NCBI RefSeq assembly: GCF_011365745.1
Contig: NZ_JAAOBY010000001.1
Coordinates: 248,001 to 312,000, forward strand
Direction of reading: 5' to 3'
Length of the DNA: 64,000 nucleotides
Origin: Flavobacterium turcicum
GTDB taxonomy: Bacteria; Bacteroidota; Bacteroidia; Flavobacteriales; Flavobacteriaceae
The notes beneath the pieces were generated by a model that did not search any database, was not told the origin of the DNA, and worked only from the letters and a program-made list of their open reading frames with translations. Positions 4,139 to 41,174 of this stretch are shown in pieces. Made by a program: the position numbers and the translations under genes. Numbering within the stretch: the first letter of the stretch is position 1; the number at the start of each line of letters is the position of its first letter.

Positions 4139-4357
4139 TATCAATTTTTTTAGAAGCTTATCGCGCCCTTCGTTTCAAGCTTTTTCCTAAAATTGTTTTT
4201 TTCTATGGGGCAAAAGGAGCTTCTTGCAGTCGCTCTTTTCACCCTCGAAAAAAATACAATTTTATAAAAAAAGGCTTTCCACTTCGGTCACGGCTAAAAA
4301 AGCGCACTTCTTAAAAAAGACTATCTGATCCTAAAAACTAGCTCAAACAAATACATT

Positions 4358-4792
4358 ATGAATATCAACATCATCAACAAATCACAGCACGACTTGCCTA
4401 GCTATGAAACCATCGCCTCGGCAGGAATGGATTTACGAGCCAATATAACCGCCCCAATTACTTTAAAACCTTTAGAACGAACCATCGTAAAAACAGGTCT
4501 TTTTATAGAACTACCTATTGGGTACGAAGCACAAGTAAGACCACGCAGCGGACTAGCTGCAAAAAATGGTGTAACCGTACTTAACGCACCCGGGACTGTA
4601 GATGCGGATTATCGTGGAGAAATTGGAGTAATTTTAGTAAATTTATCCAATGAAGATTTTACCATTCAAAATGGAGAACGCATAGCGCAATTGGTAATAG
4701 CAAAACACGAACGCGCCGAGTGGACTCTAGTTCAGGAACTGACAGAAACTTCAAGAGGTGAAGGTGGTTTTGGTAGTACGGGAGTAAAGTAA
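4358..4792 (+). CDS. dut: dUTP diphosphatase
   Basis: Hydrolyses dUTP to dUMP and pyrophosphate, keeping uracil out of DNA and feeding thymidylate synthesis. At 144 residues it has the usual trimeric dUTPase length. All five motifs are visible: AGMDLRAN (1), [10 protein letters not shown] (2), [16 protein letters not shown] (3, with the catalytic Asp), RIAQLVI (4) and [10 protein letters not shown] (5, the nucleotide-covering tail). It lies between the flippase and nucleotidyltransferase genes, with 219 bases upstream in which I see no gene. Confidence 0.97.
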
Positions 4793-4916
4793 ACAGTCGC
4801 AGTATTCAGTCACAGTAATCAGTAGAAGTTAACAGTTTTAGAAAATTATTAAACGACAAATTTCAAATATAAAGTTTCAAAAATCCGTTTAATCTTTTAA
4901 ATCTGTGGCTCAATAG

Positions 4917-4965
4917 AATAAAAAAAACTTTGCGAGCTTTGCGAAATCCTTCGTGAACTTTGCGG
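4917..4965. repeat. CTTTGCG-type intergenic repeat
   Basis: The dut-nucleotidyltransferase gap holds near-repeats of a short unit (AACTTTGCGAGCTTTGCG ... GAACTTTGCGGTTAAA). It has no coding potential and no partner arm. Related wording (GCGAACCTTGTGGTTAAA) occurs near 49462. It looks like a dispersed low-complexity intergenic element. Confidence 0.4.
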
Positions 4966-5065: not shown

Positions 5066-6076
5066 ATGAAAATAATCGTTCCTATGGCGGGTCGTGGATC
5101 ACGCCTTCGCCCACATACATTAACCATTCCTAAACCATTAATTCCTATTGCCGGCAAACCTATTGTACACCGTTTGGTTGAAGACATCGCGGGAGTTTTA
5201 AATCAACAAATTGACGAAGTAGCTTTTATCATTCATGAAAGTTTTGGTCAAAAAGTGGAAGAAGAACTTTTGGCTATAGCCCAAAAACTAGGTGCCAAAG
5301 GAACCATTTATTACCAAAACGAAGCCTTAGGAACCGGTCACGCTATCATGTGTGCCAAAGAATCCTTGAGCGGACCAGCGGTAATTGCTTACGCCGATAC
5401 CCTAATTCGTGCCGATTTTGACTTAGACAAAGAGGCAGATAGCGTAATTTGGGTAAAACAAGTAGACCAACCAGAAGCTTTTGGTGTGGTAAAATTAAAT
5501 GCGAACAATGAAATCGTTGAGTTGGTTGAAAAACCAGCCACTTTTGTTTCAGACTTAGCAGTTATTGGGATTTACTATTTCAAAGATATTGCAGTACTTA
5601 AAAACGAATTACAGTTGGTACTTGACAATAACATCATTCACGGTGGCGAATACCAAATCAATGACGGAATCAAACAAATGATGGCCAAAGGCATGAAATT
5701 TGTCCCTGGCAAAGTGGAGGAGTGGATGGATTGCGGTAACAAAAACGTGACTGTAGAAACCAATTCTAGAATGTTAGGATTTTTACATAATGATGGTGAA
5801 TCCTTAGTTGATGAAAGTGCAAAACTAGAAAACGCAACTATTATACCGCCTTGCTATATTGGTAAAAACGTAGTGTTGATTAATGCTACTGTTGGTCCAA
5901 ATGTTTCCCTTGGTGACGGTTGCCATGTGGTAAATAGTACAGTAAAAAACAGTTTGGTACAAACGCATTCGCATATCAAAAATGCCGTTTTAGACAATGC
6001 CATGATTGGTAATCACGCTAGTTTTGATGGTAATTTCACTAGCATCAGCATAGGTGATTATTCTGTTTTAGAGTAA
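5066..6076 (+). CDS. sugar-phosphate nucleotidyltransferase with left-handed beta-helix tail
   Basis: A 336-residue enzyme of the GlmU/RmlA type that transfers an NMP to a sugar 1-phosphate. The N-terminal Rossmann-like domain has the signature PMAGRGSRLRPHTLTIPKPLIPIAGKP (residues 5-31) and the downstream GTGHAIMCAKESL and YADTLIRADFDLD segments. The C-terminal ~100 residues show hexapeptide-repeat periodicity (YIGKNVVLINATVGPNVSLG), a left-handed beta-helix. Nucleotide and sugar specificity cannot be assigned. Linkage to the flippase suggests envelope glycan precursor synthesis. Confidence 0.88.
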   Translation: MKIIVPMAGRGSRLRPHTLTIPKPLIPIAGKPIVHRLVEDIAGVLNQQIDEVAFIIHESFGQKVEEELLAIAQKLGAKGTIYYQNEALGTGHAIMCAKESLSGPAVIAYADTLIRADFDLDKEADSVIWVKQVDQPEAFGVVKLNANNEIVELVEKPATFVSDLAVIGIYYFKDIAVLKNELQLVLDNNIIHGGEYQINDGIKQMMAKGMKFVPGKVEEWMDCGNKNVTVETNSRMLGFLHNDGESLVDESAKLENATIIPPCYIGKNVVLINATVGPNVSLGDGCHVVNSTVKNSLVQTHSHIKNAVLDNAMIGNHASFDGNFTSISIGDYSVLE

Positions 6077-6169
6077 AATACGGTATCAACTCACTGCTCT
6101 CAATCAGTGAGTTGTTACTTCAAAAAAGGTTCTGATTTTGTATCAATTGTACTAGTATTACGTTTAATT

Positions 6170-7525
6170 ATGAATAGGAAAAACAAATTTTTTGTACTGC
6201 TACTAATTGGATTTTTTGGATTCCAAACAAATTTGTGCGCACAAATTGAACCCGAAGAAATCAAACTGGATACAGATCAGTTTCAGGAACTATTCTACGA
6301 ATCGTTGCTGCAAAAAGGAATCGAAAATCATGACAAAGCAATCATCGCTCTTGAAAAAGCCGATAAAATCAGCCCTAACAACGCTACCGTTTTTTATGAA
6401 TTAGGGAAAAATTATTTAGCATTAAAAAATTATCCCGAAGCCTTTACTTTTTTTGAAAAAGCCAGCACTATCGATCCTAAGAATAAGTGGAATTACATTG
6501 GCATGTACGATGTGAGTTATGAAACCAAAAACTATGCGCAGGGAATCACAGTTTTAAACAAACTAATCCCAATCGATTCGAAGTACAAAGAGGATTTGAC
6601 TTCGCTGTACATGGCTACCAATCAATACGACAAAGCTTTAACTTTGATACAAGAACTCAACGAAACCGTTGGAAAAACAGATAGAAGAGAATTGTACAAA
6701 AGTCAAATTCTATCAGTAGGGAAATATCAAAATTCGGAAATTGCAAACCTCGAGCAACTCATCTCAAAGAATCCAAAGGAAGAATCGAATTACTTGAATT
6801 TGATTTTTTTGTACTCTAAAAATAACGACGAGAAAAAAGCTTTTGAAGTTGTTCAAAAATTAGAAAAAGCCATACCAAATTCAGAGTGGGCGCAGGTGAG
6901 TTTATTCAAAAATTATTTAGATAGTAATGACGCCGCAAAAGCCATCAGTGCCATGAATACTGTATTGGGTAGTAGCAAAATCGACTCAAAAATTAAAGAC
7001 CGTATTTTAAACGAATTTTTAATTTATGTCAATAAAAATCCACAGTACAGCGCTGATTTAGAAAAAGCAGTTTCTTACTTTGATAATGATCCAAACATCA
7101 ATGTAGCTAAAGAAATAGGTTTGTTTTTTCAAAGTAAAAAGCTGTACCAAAAAGCAATTCCCTTTTACGAAAAGGCTCTGAAAACCAATGCTGACAGCGA
7201 TATCGCAACGCATTTGTTGCTCTTGCAAGCACTTACGGAGGTGCAGCAATTTGACCAAATAGATAAAAAAGCAACTGCTTTGGTAGAGAGTTTTCCAACA
7301 CAAGCGACCTTTTATTATTATGTAGGTTTGGCCAACAATCAATTAAAACAATTCAAGAAAGCAAAGGATTATCTCGAAATGGGCATGGATTATGTAGTAG
7401 AACAATTGGATTTAGAAGTGAACTTCAACATCCAATTAGGAGAAGCCTATAACGGTTTGGGGGATTTCAAGAAAAAAGACTTGTATTTTGCCAAAGCCAA
7501 TCAATTAATTAAAGCAAAAAAATAA
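6170..7525 (+). CDS. secreted tetratricopeptide-repeat protein
   Basis: A 451-residue exported protein made of TPR units. The ATG at 6170 is preferred because it begins a clean signal peptide (MNRKNKFFVLLLIGFFGF ... CAQ). Repeats are visible across the whole length, for example EKADKISPNNATVFYELGKN, EKASTIDPKNKWNYIGMYD and EKALKTNADSDIATHLLLL. It ends in a TAATG overlap with the DUF4292 lipoprotein gene, so the two are translationally coupled. TPR arrays bind protein partners; together with the DUF4292 and EnvC-like genes this suggests an envelope-assembly module. Confidence 0.85.
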   Translation: MNRKNKFFVLLLIGFFGFQTNLCAQIEPEEIKLDTDQFQELFYESLLQKGIENHDKAIIALEKADKISPNNATVFYELGKNYLALKNYPEAFTFFEKASTIDPKNKWNYIGMYDVSYETKNYAQGITVLNKLIPIDSKYKEDLTSLYMATNQYDKALTLIQELNETVGKTDRRELYKSQILSVGKYQNSEIANLEQLISKNPKEESNYLNLIFLYSKNNDEKKAFEVVQKLEKAIPNSEWAQVSLFKNYLDSNDAAKAISAMNTVLGSSKIDSKIKDRILNEFLIYVNKNPQYSADLEKAVSYFDNDPNINVAKEIGLFFQSKKLYQKAIPFYEKALKTNADSDIATHLLLLQALTEVQQFDQIDKKATALVESFPTQATFYYYVGLANNQLKQFKKAKDYLEMGMDYVVEQLDLEVNFNIQLGEAYNGLGDFKKKDLYFAKANQLIKAKK

Positions 7526-21970: not shown

Positions 21971-22010
21971 GAAAAAAAGACGTTTCATTGCTGATAGTCT
22001 ATCTAAAAAG
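21971..22010. repeat. degenerate copy of the tRNA-Asn-linked terminator, possible left island boundary
   Basis: The 40 bases here (core CATTGCTGATAGTCT) resemble the terminator next to tRNA-Asn (26533-26570) and the copy at 25080-25117, matching at roughly four of five positions by eye. No tRNA piece accompanies it. Its position just outside the methyltransferase remnant makes it a candidate far edge of the accessory island. Confidence 0.45.
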
Positions 22011-22120: not shown

Positions 22121-23242
22121 TCATTCCGTCACAAAAATATTTTCTGAAAAAGTTAATATTGGTAAGTAATCACTTGCTGTAAAATTATAATGTTCATTGT
22201 ACTCTTTCATCCATTTTTTTACATTCGATTTTAAATTTATAGATTTATCTTCCTTAAAATTTTCTTTTAAAGTGATTTCAAAATAAAAATCTGTTTTGGA
22301 GTTTTCCTTGCCTTTAATTTTAGACTTATGTTTGTGCGCGATACAATCAATTTCTCCGCAAAAACGAGTTAAATGAAAATCTTTTGTTCTACCGCCAGAG
22401 TAAATTACAAGTTGTTTGGCGTTGTGTAAATCGTAAGGAAAATTTACAAAATTATTTTGTTTGTCAGTAGAGTGAAAATAGAAATTACGTGTCTCATGAA
22501 GTTGGGCCAAATCCTTACTTCTTATATAGCCTAACATAACTTGCTCTTTTGGTTTCGGTTCGTCGGCTAAGTAGCTTTGAAATTGCTTTTTATGTTCAAA
22601 TCCGTTTATTTTTTTGCGATATGTTTCAGCTATTTCAGAATCTTCTATTTCTAGTTTTCTATTTTTACTTATTTCTAAAAAATCAGTTTCCATATCTATG
22701 CCTAAATAGCGTCTGTTTGCCAAATTTGCTGCAATACCTGTTGTAGAACTTCCGGCGAATGGGTCTAGAATCCACGCTCCTGGTTTGGTTGAGGCTAAAA
22801 TAATTCGAGTTAAAACTGATAAAGGTTTTTGGGTTGGATGCTTACCGCACGACTTTTCCCATTTGGCAATTGCCGGTAATTTCCAAACATCTTTAATTTG
22901 TTTATCACCGTTGAGTTTTTTCATTAACTCATAGTTGTAGTAGTGTGGTACTTTTTCTGTTTTACGCGCCCAGATTATTAACTCGGCAGAATGCGTAAAG
23001 AAGCGACAAGAAAAATTAGGTGGTGGGTTATTCTTTTCCCATATGATGACATTAAGGATTTTAAAACCTAATTCTTGTAGTAATTGTCCGATAGAGAATA
23101 TATTGTGGTACGTGCCACTTATCCATATAGTGCCGTTATCTTTTAGTTTTTCTCTAACTTGTTTTAACCAATTACGATTGAAATCATTTATAAAATCAAA
23201 TCCTTCCGATTTATCCCAAGTTCCTTTACTTATTGATTTCAA
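22121..23242 (-). pseudogene. DpnA/HinfI-type beta-class adenine methyltransferase lacking its N-terminal DPPY motif
   Basis: About 373 residues resembling DpnA and M.HinfI-type N6-adenine methyltransferases, starting within the region after motif IV. Visible: KGTWDKSEG, TIWISGTYHNIFSIG, KNNPPPNFSCRFFTHSAELI, HPTQKPLSVL, and the SAM-binding motif I DPFAGSSTTG near residue 160. The normal order has DPPY before KGxWDK, yet here the frame upstream reads only CDFIFLKSISKGTWDK, so the catalytic motif and true start are missing. A C-terminal ~170-residue extension (PYDLHNAKQLVIYSGG, FHLTRFCGEIDC, FYFEITLK) may be a DNA-recognition or PUA-like barrel; I cannot identify it. Start coordinate is the first usable codon (TTG). 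Catalysis is unlikely. Confidence 0.75.
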
Positions 23243-23318
23243 AAAAATAAAATCACACTTATTGTGGGTTGTGTAACATTTATAAAATCTATTTCTTTGA
23301 AAAAATTAAATAAATGTT

Positions 23319-23801
23319 ATGGATGCATCTTTTGAACGTTCAGAAAAAACTACTGTAGAATGGCTAACACCGCCAGATTTAGTGAAAAAACTAGGAGAAT
23401 TTGATTTAGACCCTTGTACTCCAATAAATCCGCCTTTTGTTCACGCCAAAACTAACTTTACAGTTATTGATGATGGTTTAACTAAATCTTGGTTTGGAAG
23501 AGTTTATATGAATCCGCCCTATGGAAAAGGGATGGAAGCTTGGATTGAAAAATTAAAAAATCATGGTAACGGAATTGTGTTAATTTTTGCTAGAACTGAA
23601 ACCAAATGTTTTTTTAATCACATTTGGTATAATGCTGATGCCATTCTGTTTGTAAAAGGAAGAATTAAATTTTACAATATTGATGGTGAACAGAAAGGGA
23701 CTCCTGGTGCTCCAAGTGTGTTTATTGCTTACGGAGAAGATAATGCTTTGGCTTTAAAAAAATCTGGTATTGAGGGAAGGTATTTGGATTTAAAATCATG
23801 A
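23319..23801 (+). CDS. phage-type DNA N-6-adenine methyltransferase (PF05869-like)
   Basis: A 160-residue protein of the small Dam-like family common in phages: EWLTPPDLVKKLGEFDLDPC (N-terminal TPP and DPC motifs), VYMNPPYGKGMEAWIEKL (NPPY catalytic motif IV) and the C-terminal GTPGAPSVFIAYG. It appears complete. Its target is unknown; some family members methylate GATC, which would be expected to conflict with the neighbouring DpnI homologue. It is the only plus-strand gene in this cassette, divergent from the methyltransferase remnant and overlapping the small minus-strand gene tail-to-tail by six bases. Confidence 0.85.
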   Translation: MDASFERSEKTTVEWLTPPDLVKKLGEFDLDPCTPINPPFVHAKTNFTVIDDGLTKSWFGRVYMNPPYGKGMEAWIEKLKNHGNGIVLIFARTETKCFFNHIWYNADAILFVKGRIKFYNIDGEQKGTPGAPSVFIAYGEDNALALKKSGIEGRYLDLKS

Positions 23802-23996
23802 AATTTTATACGCTATAAATTCAGCTATATTAAATTCACTATCAAATATCCATTCGTTTTCAATCAAGAGTTTTTTTAATGCTTCATCCTCGTTGGGAAC
23901 ATTCTCGACAATTCCGATTACTTGCATATTTTCAACTTGTTTTCCATTTGGAGCTTCTGTTGATCCTTCTGGTGTAATAAATATATATTTTCCCAT
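23796..23996 (-). CDS. small protein following the DpnI homologue (66 aa)
   Basis: A 66-residue acidic protein (MGKYIFITPEGSTEAPNG, NMQVIGIVENVPNEDEALKK, NEWIFDSEFNIAEFIAYKIS). It begins two bases after the DpnI-like stop, so it is co-transcribed. I recall similar small hypothetical proteins starting YIFITPEG in other bacteria but know no function. It occupies the position of dpnD in the pneumococcal DpnI cassette; homology to DpnD is not evident by eye. Confidence 0.7.
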   Translation of the reverse strand: MGKYIFITPEGSTEAPNGKQVENMQVIGIVENVPNEDEALKKLLIENEWIFDSEFNIAEFIAYKIS

Positions 23997-23998
23997 GA

Positions 23999-24760
23999 TT
24001 ATATTTTTCTGTAATGTCCTCTACCGTTAAATTCTATTAAACCTTTATCTCTTAAAAATTGTAATTGCTGTCGGATTTTATCTTTAATATGGTTGTTGTT
24101 TGGATATTTAATTTTTAATTTATTTTCAAAAGAATAGACATCCTCCAAAGTAAAAGATTCTTTTCGGATTTCTTCAATACAAATCATAATGTCTAAAATC
24201 CATCCTCTTGATTCAAGTTTTTTTGACTTTAAAAAAGCGGTATTTTTTAATTTATTATACACTTGTTCTTGGTCAATAATATTTGAATTTTTAACTATAA
24301 AAATTCTTCCACTTTCTGGAACTTTTGATATATCTATGTTACAACCAATCCACCCAGCTCTTTTTGCGTTTTCAGATAATGGTTTTCTTTTGATGATTAT
24401 TTCTGGTGTAAAAAAATGTTTTGGTATAACCAAAAAATTATTTACTGTGTTTTTGTCATAGGTTAAGAAGAAAAAATTTGGATTAGTGTCGGAAGTAATT
24501 CTTCTAATCATACTGTCGTACGCACCGTCATTAATTATAGAACTGAGTTTGCCGTTTTTACTTTTTAATTCAAATTCTTCTTTACAATTTATACAATGGA
24601 AATCAGCAACAGGCATGTTATTTTCAAAGTCATTCAATGATAGTTCGCCACAGTTTGGGCAATATGAATTTTCTTTAACCCAATTTTCAGTTAAAACTCT
24701 TGCAATCTGTGAATTGCTTTTATATCCCTCCGCTAAAATTAGATTGAAGTTTAGGTTCAT
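23999..24760 (-). CDS. dpnI-like: DpnI-like methyl-directed restriction endonuclease
   Basis: A 253-residue homologue of DpnI (254 aa), which cuts GATC only when the adenine is methylated. Similarity runs end to end. The zinc-site cysteines are C34, C37, C56 and C59; the PD-(D/E)XK residues are D53 (PVADF), E64 and K66 (EEFELKSK), at the same numbers as in DpnI. AGWIGCNID and the C-terminal winged helix (NNHIKDKIRQQLQFLRDKGL, EFNGRGHYRK) are also kept. The ATG at 24760 is chosen because MNLNFNLILAEGYKSNS aligns with the DpnI N-terminus. It overlaps the stop of the Dam-like remnant (TAATG), so translation is probably coupled. Expected role: restriction of Dam-methylated foreign DNA. Confidence 0.93.
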   Translation of the reverse strand: MNLNFNLILAEGYKSNSQIARVLTENWVKENSYCPNCGELSLNDFENNMPVADFHCINCKEEFELKSKNGKLSSIINDGAYDSMIRRITSDTNPNFFFLTYDKNTVNNFLVIPKHFFTPEIIIKRKPLSENAKRAGWIGCNIDISKVPESGRIFIVKNSNIIDQEQVYNKLKNTAFLKSKKLESRGWILDIMICIEEIRKESFTLEDVYSFENKLKIKYPNNNHIKDKIRQQLQFLRDKGLIEFNGRGHYRKI

Positions 24761-24849
24761 TAATGTAGAAAATAGGTTTTTAAATAAAAACTCCAACTAT
24801 TTAACTGGGTTTTACCACCAGTCCATTTTAAAAATGGTTTTGCGTTCAT
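24760..24849 (-). pseudogene. 5' remnant of a Dam/DpnM-type methyltransferase gene, now a leader peptide
   Basis: A 29-codon frame beginning MNAKPFLKWTGGKTQL, which matches the N-terminus of D12-class GATC adenine methyltransferases (PFLKWAGGKxQL, SAM-binding region). After about 16 codons similarity stops (NSWSFYLKTYFLH) and the frame ends TAATG on the DpnI-like start. The rest of the gene is absent from the window. The ancestral start may still drive translation into the nuclease gene. Confidence 0.75.
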
Positions 24850-24940: not shown

Positions 24941-24998
24941 GCTCCTCCGCCGCGGCGGACTCGAACCAAGGTTCGAAAAAGTTTAAACCAAAAAAAAG
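24941..24998. repeat. tRNA 3'-end-like repeat, copy 1
   Basis: On the minus strand it reads CCTTGGTTCGAGTCC (T-arm like) then a CCGCCGCGGCGG-type palindrome and GGAGGAGC, like a tRNA T-arm and acceptor without the rest of the tRNA. It is followed by a GCAA-loop terminator (about 24990-25022). The copy shares its 31-base core (24941-24971) with copies 2 and 3. Confidence 0.75.
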
Positions 24999-25016: not shown

Positions 25017-25124
25017 GGCTTTCTAAAAGCTCCTCCGCCGCGGCGGACTCGAACCAAGGCCCGAAAAAGTTTAGACCAAAAAAAAAGACCATCCTTGCTG
25101 ATAGTCTTTTTAAAAAAGCTCCCC
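25017..25124. repeat. tRNA 3'-end-like direct repeat, copy 2 (~108 bp)
   Basis: It contains the T-arm/acceptor-like core (25029-25059), a terminator with GCAA loop (about 25080-25113) and, at its right end, GCTCCCC, matching the first bases of the tRNA-Asn 3' end. It is nearly identical to 26473-26579 (about four differences). The pair flanks the HxlR/secreted-protein module like duplicated attachment sites. Confidence 0.8.
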
Positions 25125-25216: not shown

Positions 25217-25978
25217 TTAAATACCTTCCTGTTTTTCTTCTTTCTTGATTGGAGCTTTATAGGGTCTTTTTATTATTTTCAAGTCCTTAAAGTATCCAAC
25301 TGTAGCTATATCAACATAAAGTCCAACTCCTCCTTTTTTAACTTTACCTAACATTTTATCAACGATAAAAGAAGAGTATTTCATATTGTTAATAAACATT
25401 TCGGCCGTTTCTCCATTTACCTCAATTCTCATTGTTATCCATTCATTTAAAGCAACTGGTGCTGAGCCCTCATACGATCCAGGAGGATAATTTTTTCTAA
25501 GTGTTTCAAATTTTGCATCCGGATAAGAAAAATATTGAACAGCGTGGTTTCTAAACATTTGATTTGAGGCTCTTCCAACTTTAGGTCGCAAATAAATTGA
25601 CTCAAACGCAGAATCGTTTGCAGCAATTCGATAATACAAGCCAATAAAACCGGCAGCTCCTGCAAAAGGGGATGGATCTTGAATTTGACTATACATCTTA
25701 ATCTCTATAGTTCCATTTTCAAAATCATTTAATCCAACTAATTTTGCATAATGTTTTTCATCTACAGTCGCCTCTAATCTATTTGGGTCAAATGGCAAAG
25801 TGGTTAAATCTCTTTCAATTTTAAGCACGGGTTCACCTTGAAACTTAATGATTGATCCTGTCACGTTATGTAATTCAAAAACTTGTTTCCCTAAAGTCAA
25901 TTTTGTTTGAGCAAAAACAGAGGAAACAAAAAAGAACTTAATTAATAAAAAACTGATAATCTGTATGTAATTTTTCAT
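25217..25978 (-). CDS. secreted concanavalin-like (DUF1080-type) protein
   Basis: A 253-residue exported protein with signal peptide ending VFAQ. The middle shows the lectin/glucanase-like jelly-roll pattern (LNDFENGTIEIKMYSQIQ, AAGFIGLYYRIAANDSAFESIYLRP, EWITMRIEVNGETAEMFINN, KKGGVGLYVDIATVGYFKDLKI). A basic/acidic tail follows. No catalytic residues are recognisable. It is divergent from the HxlR regulator gene (85-base gap), so it is probably the regulator's target, and the pair lies between two direct repeats. Confidence 0.75.
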   Translation of the reverse strand: MKNYIQIISFLLIKFFFVSSVFAQTKLTLGKQVFELHNVTGSIIKFQGEPVLKIERDLTTLPFDPNRLEATVDEKHYAKLVGLNDFENGTIEIKMYSQIQDPSPFAGAAGFIGLYYRIAANDSAFESIYLRPKVGRASNQMFRNHAVQYFSYPDAKFETLRKNYPPGSYEGSAPVALNEWITMRIEVNGETAEMFINNMKYSSFIVDKMLGKVKKGGVGLYVDIATVGYFKDLKIIKRPYKAPIKKEEKQEGI

Positions 25979-26472: not shown

Positions 26473-26579
26473 GGCTTTCTAAAAGCTCCTCCGCCGCGGC
26501 GGACTCGAACCAAGGCCCGAAAAAGTTTAAACCAAAAAAAAGACCATCATTGCTGATAGTCTTTTTAAAAAAGCTCCCC
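26473..26579. repeat. tRNA 3'-end-like direct repeat, copy 3 (~107 bp)
   Basis: Same structure as copy 2: a tail of a hairpin (GGCTTTCTAAAA), the T-arm/acceptor core (26485-26515), the GCAA-loop terminator (26533-26570), then GCTCCCC, which here is the real 3' end of tRNA-Asn. Another hairpin (about 26448-26480) precedes it. Confidence 0.8.
26533..26570 (-). terminator. tRNA-Asn terminator
   Basis: Minus strand: AAGACTATCA, loop GCAA, TGATGGTCTT, T-run. A 10-bp stem with one G-T pair, directly after the tRNA-Asn 3' end. Copied in the other repeat units. Confidence 0.8.
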
Positions 26580-26647
26580 CTCTTGGGCTCGAACCAAGGA
26601 CCCTCTGATTAACAGTCAGATGCTCTAACCAACTGAGCTAAGGAGGA
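26574..26647 (-). tRNA. tRNA-Asn(GTT)
   Basis: A 74-base cloverleaf on the minus strand: acceptor TCCTCCT pairing with AGGGGGA (one G-T), D-arm TTAGCTCAGTTGGTTAGAGC, anticodon arm CTGACTGTTAATCAG with anticodon GTT, T-arm CTTGGTTCGAGCCCAAG, discriminator G. CCA is not encoded. Three partial 3'-end copies lie downstream. Confidence 0.95.
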
Positions 26648-31939: not shown

Positions 31940-32085
31940 AGCAGTCAGGCTGTTTTCAGTAGCTATCTATTCCCGCTCTTAGCCGTATCTTTTTTATAAA
32001 CGCACTCGAGTAGTGCTAAAACGCCAGAAATACTAGTGTTTATAAAAAAGGATACCTGCTGCGATCGGGGCTATGCTAGTCGTAT
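31940..32085. repeat. REP-like palindromic element, copy A
   Basis: GTCAGGCTGTT leader, then arms CTTTTTTATAAAC (from 31989) and GTTTATAAAAAAG (to 32050) around a ~30-base loop, then GGATACCTGCTGCGATC. The order GTCAGGCTGTT / GCTAT / C-T-run hairpin / A-run GGATnCC matches the element at 41017-41090. No coding potential. With the leader below it accounts for most of the 496-base gap between the MFS and TonB receptor genes; I see no gene in 32086-32290. Confidence 0.6.
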
Positions 32086-40902: not shown

Positions 40903-41016
40903 GGGCGCAGTTGAGAGCACAATCAAACTAGAATAATGTAATAAACAGAATCCCTTTTGAATTTCAAGAGGGATTTTTTTTGGGCATGCCCCAGCTTTCA
41001 CTATCGTTGCAGCTGC

Positions 41017-41090
41017 GTCAGGCTGTTCGCTATATCTTTTTATACCTTTTAGGCTACTAGCCTAAAAGGTATAAAAAGGATGCCGCTTCC
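41017..41090. repeat. REP-like palindromic element, copy B (21-bp perfect arms)
   Basis: GTCAGGCTGTTCGCTATAT leader, then a perfect 21-bp inverted repeat (arms 41036-41056 and 41058-41078 around a single C), then GGATGCCGC. The arms begin CTTTTTATACC. The stem is far too long and symmetrical to be a typical terminator, and the flanks match copy A at 31940-32085. Together with the unit at 40879 it fills most of the 413-base gap between hflX and the PepSY gene. Confidence 0.7.
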
Positions 41091-41174
41091 ATCCTTCATG
41101 CATTAGGGTAGCATTTTAAAGTGCTATTTACAATAATTAACACTTTTCAGTTGCATAGTTGGGTACGAAATGTC

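Follow-up and report, generated by a model that had tools for sequence, protein, structure and literature searches.

A DpnI-type restriction cassette in the probable shell of a D12-DpnII-DpnA operon of Flavobacterium turcicum: a recurrent variant of a known cassette exchange

DpnI and DpnII restriction systems are opposites, in that the methylation protecting the host of one is cut in the host of the other. To our knowledge, a lineage crossing between them without self-killing has been described in pneumococcus and Neisseria. A stretch of 64,000 nucleotides from Flavobacterium turcicum (contig NZ_JAAOBY010000001.1, positions 248,001 to 312,000; hereafter the window) raises the question of how such a crossing is made, as a dpnI homologue lies there between pieces of two DNA methyltransferase genes, one of the D12 (dam/dpnM) type and one of the DpnA type. 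Comparison with related loci indicates that the window locus is very probably a methyl-directed restriction cassette of the DpnI type housed in what is left of a D12-DpnII-DpnA operon. Cassette exchange of this kind is already known, and these loci represent a new, recurrent variant of it.

The dpnI (dpnC) homologue (23999..24760, minus strand) is complete and encodes a predicted methyl-directed restriction endonuclease of 253 aa. It consists of a Dam-replacing catalytic domain (PF06044, E 4.3e-82) and a C-terminal winged helix (PF17726, E 5.3e-36), both full-length Pfam matches, and it matches the PADLOC model mREase_II with E 3.3e-117. The protein aligns end to end with crystallised DpnI (PDB 4esj/4kyw; phmmer to 4esj, residues 1-253). 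In this alignment D53, E64 and K66 and four cysteines are all kept, at positions that we take to be the catalytic and zinc-binding ones. L129, R135, W138 and G140 of the methyl-binding pocket, as named in PMC4117772, are likewise present. A reading made from the window letters before any database search (the sequence-only reading) had called this gene an intact DpnI homologue with its zinc cysteines and D53/E64/K66, and Pfam, the PDB alignment and the residue check all agree with it.

Read on the minus strand from 24849, the locus consists of a D12 scar, 13 further codons, dpnI, a gene for a 66-aa protein (23796..23996) and a DpnA-type open reading frame (ORF; 22121..23242). A phage-type N6-adenine methyltransferase of family PF05869 (23319..23801, plus strand; E 3.2e-11), with its NPPY motif intact, is convergent with the 66-aa gene and overlaps it by 6 bases. 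The D12 scar (24802..24849, minus strand) has its ATG at 24849 and comprises the start codon and 15 further codons, reading MNAKPFLKWTGGKTQL. The DpnA-type ORF begins with TTG at 23242 and lacks the N-terminus. Its homology to intact Flavobacteriaceae DpnA (298 residues) starts at residue 58 of the latter, with 74% identity from there, and spans about 23236..22553; the DPPY motif of the intact protein occupies residues 39-42, before the matched region. PF01555 (N6_N4_Mtase) matches the remnant over profile positions 16-220 with E 3.8e-53. Coordinates and alignments thus bear out the earlier placement of dpnI between the first 16 D12 codons and a DpnA-type gene whose homology begins past DPPY, and the small gene and phage-type methylase are as that reading had described them. 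The remnant also carries a C-terminal extension of about 145 residues (about 22567..22124), seen as well in L013, L016, L041, L055, L058 and L074 and as a fragment in L015, and in none of the other surveyed loci with DpnA-like sequence.

Might the D12 scar resemble D12 by accident, or be a small ORF in its own right, with the DpnA-like gene encoding some other methyltransferase? The scar is only 16 codons long, and the 29-aa ORF that contains it has no Pfam match. However, a degenerate 24-base pattern for FLKWxGGK has a single match in the window, at the scar, and none in 100 shuffles. The 74% identity of the DpnA part, together with the graded set of D12 remnants that relatives carry at this position, with ends between residues 16 and 293, makes this explanation highly improbable. 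The claim that both scars belong to methyltransferase families stands.

The shell can be recognized from intact operons. A D12 protein search of 397 genomes of the family gave matches in 21 genomes. The eight closest D12 loci (L088-L095) include three with a DpnII-like gene adjoining D12 (L088, L093 and L095), at 32-50% identity in matched pieces and over short stretches. Three of the eight, when extended (L109, L110 and L112), have exactly the order D12 - DpnII nuclease - DpnA, with the Pfam domains D12, DpnII and N6_N4_Mtase confirmed for L109, and a fourth (L114) has two extra ORFs between nuclease and DpnA. This is the order that had been proposed for the shell, in which the ends of the two methyltransferase genes persist as scars. 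When 395 genomes of the class were searched, 15 of them yielded a further 16 D12 loci, and dpnI stands beside D12 in one of the 37 loci of the two sets together. There (genome G175, locus L096) D12 is cut at about residue 176-179, and its residues 1-176 are 91% identical to the intact D12 of G121. In the window none of a complete D12, a DpnII nuclease and a DpnA with DPPY was found, and the window genome (99.95% complete) holds no D12, no PF04556 DpnII and no N6_N4 methylase beyond the DpnA remnant. The alignments support the view that dpnI occupies the place that in intact operons is taken by the remainder of D12, the DpnII gene and the beginning of DpnA, with both GATC methylases broken. Two observations concern the intact operons themselves. 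In L113 the gene between D12 and DpnA (5381-5902) encodes a 173-aa PD-(D/E)XK-type protein (PF20472) and not DpnII, so the middle slot accepts different nucleases. Genes that look like reverse transcriptases by eye occur in or near two operons (L114:7226-8617 and L110:7125-8486).

To place the window among its relatives, we compiled 83 DpnI loci: 80 (L008-L087) from a single scan in which the window DpnI was searched against named genomes, plus the window, G175 (L111) and G041 (L003), leaving out the weaker or duplicate matches L004-L007. The scan favours close relatives, because its patterns were taken from the window protein. The dpnI gene itself is broken in a few loci (L003, L074 of F. limicola, where the record shows a frameshift, and L082). 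A D12 remnant lies upstream of dpnI in 32 of the 83 loci, 31 found by tblastn and the window by its scar. These remnants keep the N-terminal side and end 2-116 nucleotides before dpnI, except in L077, where the contig starts within the remnant. The last matched D12 residue is 16-25 in the window, L008, L010, L012 and L057; 31-48 in L045, L009, L014, L042 and the streptococcal L060 and L068; 69-176 in L028, L067, L040, L032 and G175; and 247-293 in the remaining 16. None of these 16 long remnants has, in any frame, the C-terminal ELLITN-type block found at the end of intact D12 proteins, and all 16 keep DPPY. Downstream, DpnA-like sequence occurs in 35 of 83 loci, with the first matched residue ranging from 6 to 261 of 298 (at least 14 in 33 of them) and DPPY present in the best piece in 12 of 35.

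A further type of shell is seen in streptococci, where the nuclease gene is last in the operon. In Streptococcus anginosus (L060) dpnI is preceded by a D12 start and followed by the C-terminal remnant of a DpnII gene. Together with the D12 and DpnA series, this locus shows that the cassette is bounded by the beginning of the operon's first gene and the end of its last.

These remnants bear on the idea that dpnI was acquired beside an already dead methylase operon, with no swap and with the stubs as decaying bystanders. Some remnants are indeed frameshifted or internally deleted (D12 of L030; DpnA of L032 and L037), and invariant D12 positions are changed in 112 of 1715 cases in 18 remnants versus 34 of 1684 in 15 intact D12s. 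However, L032 alone contributes 61 of the 112 changes, and the 12 long open remnants (leaving out L030, L032, L038, L040, L082 and L111) have 22 of 1231, like intact genes. The long remnants are cut at the dpnI side, the D12 tree is interleaved and the stub frames end at the dpnI start beyond controls, as described below. On this balance we consider the bystander explanation quite unlikely.

Did the exchange happen once? A tree was built from D12 proteins, 18 of them remnants and 19 intact, with L032 and L040 filling less than half of the columns; the two kinds interleave in it. There are 8 label changes, at least 6 of them forced by well-supported branches, and a single remnant clade is rejected by the approximately unbiased test (p-AU 3.65e-79). 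The interleaving indicates that the swap recurred, and it supports repeated exchange between resident operons. Synonymous differences add to this picture: they are larger in D12 than in dpnI in 9 of 10 pairs, the exception being L020/L041, which suggests a cassette younger than its flanks. Between L017 and L018, identity is about 84-87% in distal D12 and 94% in dpnI, falling to 77% in late DpnA. Such a pattern may be the trace expected of cassette exchange by recombination in the methylase flanks; faster flank evolution may also produce it.

The sequence-only reading, correct as to the kind of change, had attributed the whole gap, from about 24800 to about 23243, to one recombination; a single local event is probably wrong. 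The first replacement was probably smaller than the present gap, since in many relatives D12 still reaches about residue 285 and DpnA begins near residue 15, and the 16-codon scar looks like later erosion. D12 is cut within a few codons of the same place in F. alvei (L010) and in two Bacteroidetes metagenome-assembled genomes (L008 and L012). An assembly or binning artefact joining unrelated genes is the kind of error to which a draft genome of 23 contigs is exposed. Yet the window locus lies in a 915-kb contig, the F. alvei isolate has stub, dpnI, 66-aa gene and Dam, and the complete chromosome of F. ammonificans (L014) has stub, dpnI, 66-aa gene and a partial Dam, leaving an artefact a negligible chance.

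Nor does the window site appear to be where the exchange was made. A tRNA-Asn gene (26573..26647, minus strand) neighbours rseP in the window. Of five same-genus genomes, three show the same neighbours and two gave distant rseP matches only. In those three genomes no locus genes were found in about 12 kb beyond rseP. As these genomes lack the locus and L008, L010 and L012 are cut at a like codon, the locus probably arrived already scarred, and the swap was probably not made at this site. The flank gene at 25217-25978 had no match in the five genomes as a synteny marker, and rseP served instead.

The remnant reading frame suggests why a 16-codon stub would persist. Past the D12 homology, the scar frame continues for 13 codons (24760..24801, minus strand), a proposed translational leader, and ends in TAATG, its stop sharing one base with the dpnI start. 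Across the survey, the D12-remnant frame stops -6..+3 nucleotides from the dpnI start in 24 of 32 loci, whereas the two alternative frames do so in 3 and 9 loci, and pseudo-junctions placed at equal distances in the 51 remnant-less loci do so in 411 of 1632 cases. Because this frame usually closes so near to where dpnI begins, we propose the scar as a leader. The counts speak with moderate strength for translation of dpnI being coupled to the D12 start.

Taken together, the relatives suggest the following sequence of events. A first swap would have removed the D12 end, the nuclease and the DpnA start; a later deletion in the window lineage would have left no more than 16 codons of D12 and the later part of DpnA; and this scarred unit would then have moved to the site beside tRNA-Asn. 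The nuclease is predicted to destroy incoming DNA methylated at adenine in GATC (Gm6ATC) and to spare the host chromosome, presumably unmethylated. The D12 stub may persist for the sake of its promoter and start codon, which would drive dpnI through translational coupling, and the methylase stubs could serve as homology arms for cassette exchange.

Several points weigh against this account. In L055 and L079 the DpnA match begins as early as residue 6, so that these two may be complete genes. If the coupled frame is required to be open from the D12 start, the count falls to 22 of 32 (L009 and L030 are lost), and the coupling counts are not independent, because the loci are related and many long-remnant loci have one common junction. 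The ten pairs used for synonymous comparison share members and were chosen for low dpnI divergence, which leans the result towards a dpnI younger than its flanks. GATC occurs in the window genome at 0.67 of expectation (464 kb), against 0.66 (340 kb) in a same-genus genome without a DpnI or D12 hit, and GATC scarcity was accordingly set aside as a sign of a former GATC system there. The ratio is 0.49 in G175 (DpnI), 0.43 in G121 (DpnII operon) and 0.77 in G014 (neither). The PF05869 Dam, if it targets GATC beside DpnI, should be lethal to the cell. Finally, most long-remnant D12 bodies are as conserved as intact ones and could still do something.

The last point leads to another explanation, in which the truncated D12s of long-remnant loci keep their activity or have gained another function, such as binding or regulation, which would make these loci operons of a modified methylase with DpnI. 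The Pfam D12 domain is complete in L022, and the conservation of DPPY and of invariant positions described above fits such a role. The ratio of nonsynonymous to synonymous change (dN/dS) of D12 is 0.04-0.09 among long remnants, and in the exceptional pair L020/L041 synonymous divergence is near equal for D12 and dpnI (0.43 and 0.45), with a D12 dN/dS of 0.06. The absence of the last conserved block from every long remnant argues the other way, as does a model of the L036 protein that has no confident structure from residue 274, although the whole model is weak (mean predicted local distance difference test, pLDDT, 64.6) and has no intact control. A low D12 dN/dS can also predate the swap, as the flanks are usually older than dpnI. 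We regard active remnants as rather unlikely, and cassette exchange into resident operons as the better account of these loci.

Two types of cassette can be told apart by the genes that follow dpnI. A homologue of the pneumococcal partner protein DpnD occurs after dpnI in 34 of 83 loci and the 66-aa protein in another 34, none having both. PF14207 (DpnD) was confirmed in all three DpnD homologues tested; it does not follow dpnI in the window. The 66-aa protein resembles DpnD by eye, a kinship rejected on profile comparison (hhalign probability 1.2%). It has no Pfam match, and although its model is confident (pLDDT 95.9), Foldseek returned no PDB or viral match at E <= 0.001. The PF05869 Dam homologue is present in 29 of the 34 loci with the 66-aa protein, including the window, and in none with DpnD. 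It is convergent in all 29, with a partial copy in L014 and a split one in L031, and this constant company and orientation argue that the 66-aa and Dam genes belong to the cassette. Cultured strains with this cassette in full include F. alvei HR-AY (L010) and F. glaciei DSM 19728 (L011). NPPY is kept in 27 of 27 full-length copies, and dN/dS is 0.03-0.22 in the listed full-length close pairs. In the window genome, searched for D12, DpnII, N6_N4 and PF05869, the intact cassette copy is the one PF05869 gene. Other arrangements are seen in single loci. L034 has two copies of the 66-aa gene (4732-4926 and 6768-6965), one on each side of dpnI, and in L064 a partial match to dpnI (5991-6212) follows the first one at a distance of about 4.2 kb downstream.

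What, then, does a Dam-family methylase do beside DpnI? The window protein shares NPPY and 34% identity over 147 columns with M.Phi93DAM of a lactococcal phage, which methylates GATC (PMC4190342); the window copy differs in sitting beside a DpnI gene. The ordinary explanation of the pairing, and in our judgement the likely one, is that the PF05869 methylase has a different target; tight control of the enzyme ranks next. A more speculative reading, which we hold to be very unlikely, is that the cassette is a self-destruct device or switch. Dam would make Gm6ATC but would normally be silent or held back, and its release would let DpnI destroy both the cell's own and phage DNA. Either the 66-aa protein or convergent transcription may hold it back, and release may come, for example, on infection, as in abortive infection. 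If this were true, evolution would have joined a restriction enzyme to the very methylase that makes its substrate. That DpnI and a Dam-family methylase repeatedly occur together is in any case a directly testable contradiction. Carriage of the cassette by phages or plasmids found no support: no phage record covers 80% of DpnI (3 match part of it), the only two plasmid records matching DpnI are chromosome-sized and from N. gonorrhoeae, and viral_contigs gave no confirmed relative of the cassette Dam gene.

Several known systems resemble these loci. The DpnI and DpnII cassettes of Streptococcus pneumoniae have their flanks in common. The Bacteroidota loci differ in their methylase-nuclease-methylase order, in a shell made of the ends of both methylase genes and in variable remnant lengths, and the window cassette has the 66-aa protein and convergent Dam in place of DpnD. 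As here, DpnI and the GATC D12-DpnII-DpnA system of S. pneumoniae alternate at one place (PMC3573125, PMC4263131). In Neisseria, a DpnI homologue, drg (NmeBII or gonococcal Drg), is inserted in the dam locus, with dam truncated in some strains; dam+ and drg+ are reported to exclude each other, and gonococcal Drg cut Gm6ATC DNA only (PMC4269198, PMC516771). The Neisseria case concerns a dam gene beside leuS, whereas the present loci derive from a two-methylase restriction-modification operon in Bacteroidota and a few other phyla. The parent operon type is that of the MboI/DpnII-type GATC systems of Bacteroidota. In P. intermedia a GATC methylase adjoins an MboI-like nuclease gene, the nuclease being lost in strain 17F, and the excerpt of PMC5608340 that describes this mentions no DpnI gene. 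Among the open-licence papers listed by literature searches, at most 20 for each, none has a title or visible abstract on the Bacteroidota loci, on paired methylase scars or on a DpnI-Dam pairing. The earlier remark that no described case was known in Bacteroidetes holds to that extent; the truncation of dam by drg in Neisseria is a close published precedent.

The survey loci offer many replicates of the crossing from DpnII to DpnI, intermediates included. In them, the incoming cassette would remove the ends of both GATC methylases and apparently take over their start signal, and the recurrence of the swap points to a way in which bacteria may pass from one antiviral defence to its opposite, although each is lethal to the other. 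Of 42 genomes with DpnI-like enzymes, 38 have been reported to be depleted of GATC, a result called surprising (PMC4687349). The present finding bears on it, as many DpnI loci hold a DpnII-type predecessor at the same place, although GATC in the window genome is no scarcer than in the same-genus genome compared above.

Repeats surround the window locus. A 38-nucleotide repeat, terminator-like by eye, follows the DpnA remnant (21972..22009, minus strand), with copies at 25079-25116 and, next to tRNA-Asn, at 26534-26571. Three identical 26-nucleotide copies near tRNA-Asn (24942-24967, 25030-25055 and 26486-26511) look by eye like the 3' part of a tRNA. Copies of these tRNA-end-like and terminator-like repeats flank or adjoin the locus, and the surroundings of tRNA-Asn are possibly an integration hot spot. 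Two tandem tRNA-Asn genes stand at the syntenic place in two of the three same-genus genomes. Elsewhere in the survey, a 338-aa gene after DpnD is of the RhuM family (PF13310) in L020 and similar by eye in L022, and its stretch has high DNA identity in L036 and L041.

A junction repeat upstream of many dpnI genes was considered as an integron attachment site and rejected, as integron core sites did not fit and Rfam identified it as Flavo-1 (RF01705), an element whose function is called unclear in PMC9723704. Flavo-1 lies antisense directly upstream of dpnI in 12 of 20 scanned DpnI loci (L017, L018, L020, L022, L028, L029, L030, L032, L036, L041, L044 and L082), between D12 remnant and dpnI in all of these except L029, which has no remnant. 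It was found in none of 9 intact-D12 stretches, nor at the window junction. The window itself carries Flavo-1 elements at 4155-4299, 31965-32076 and 41012-41113 (minus strand). In the window genome Flavo-1 is a very abundant dispersed repeat, with at least 106 hits, 98 of them over the cut-off, from 150 of 920 candidates scored.

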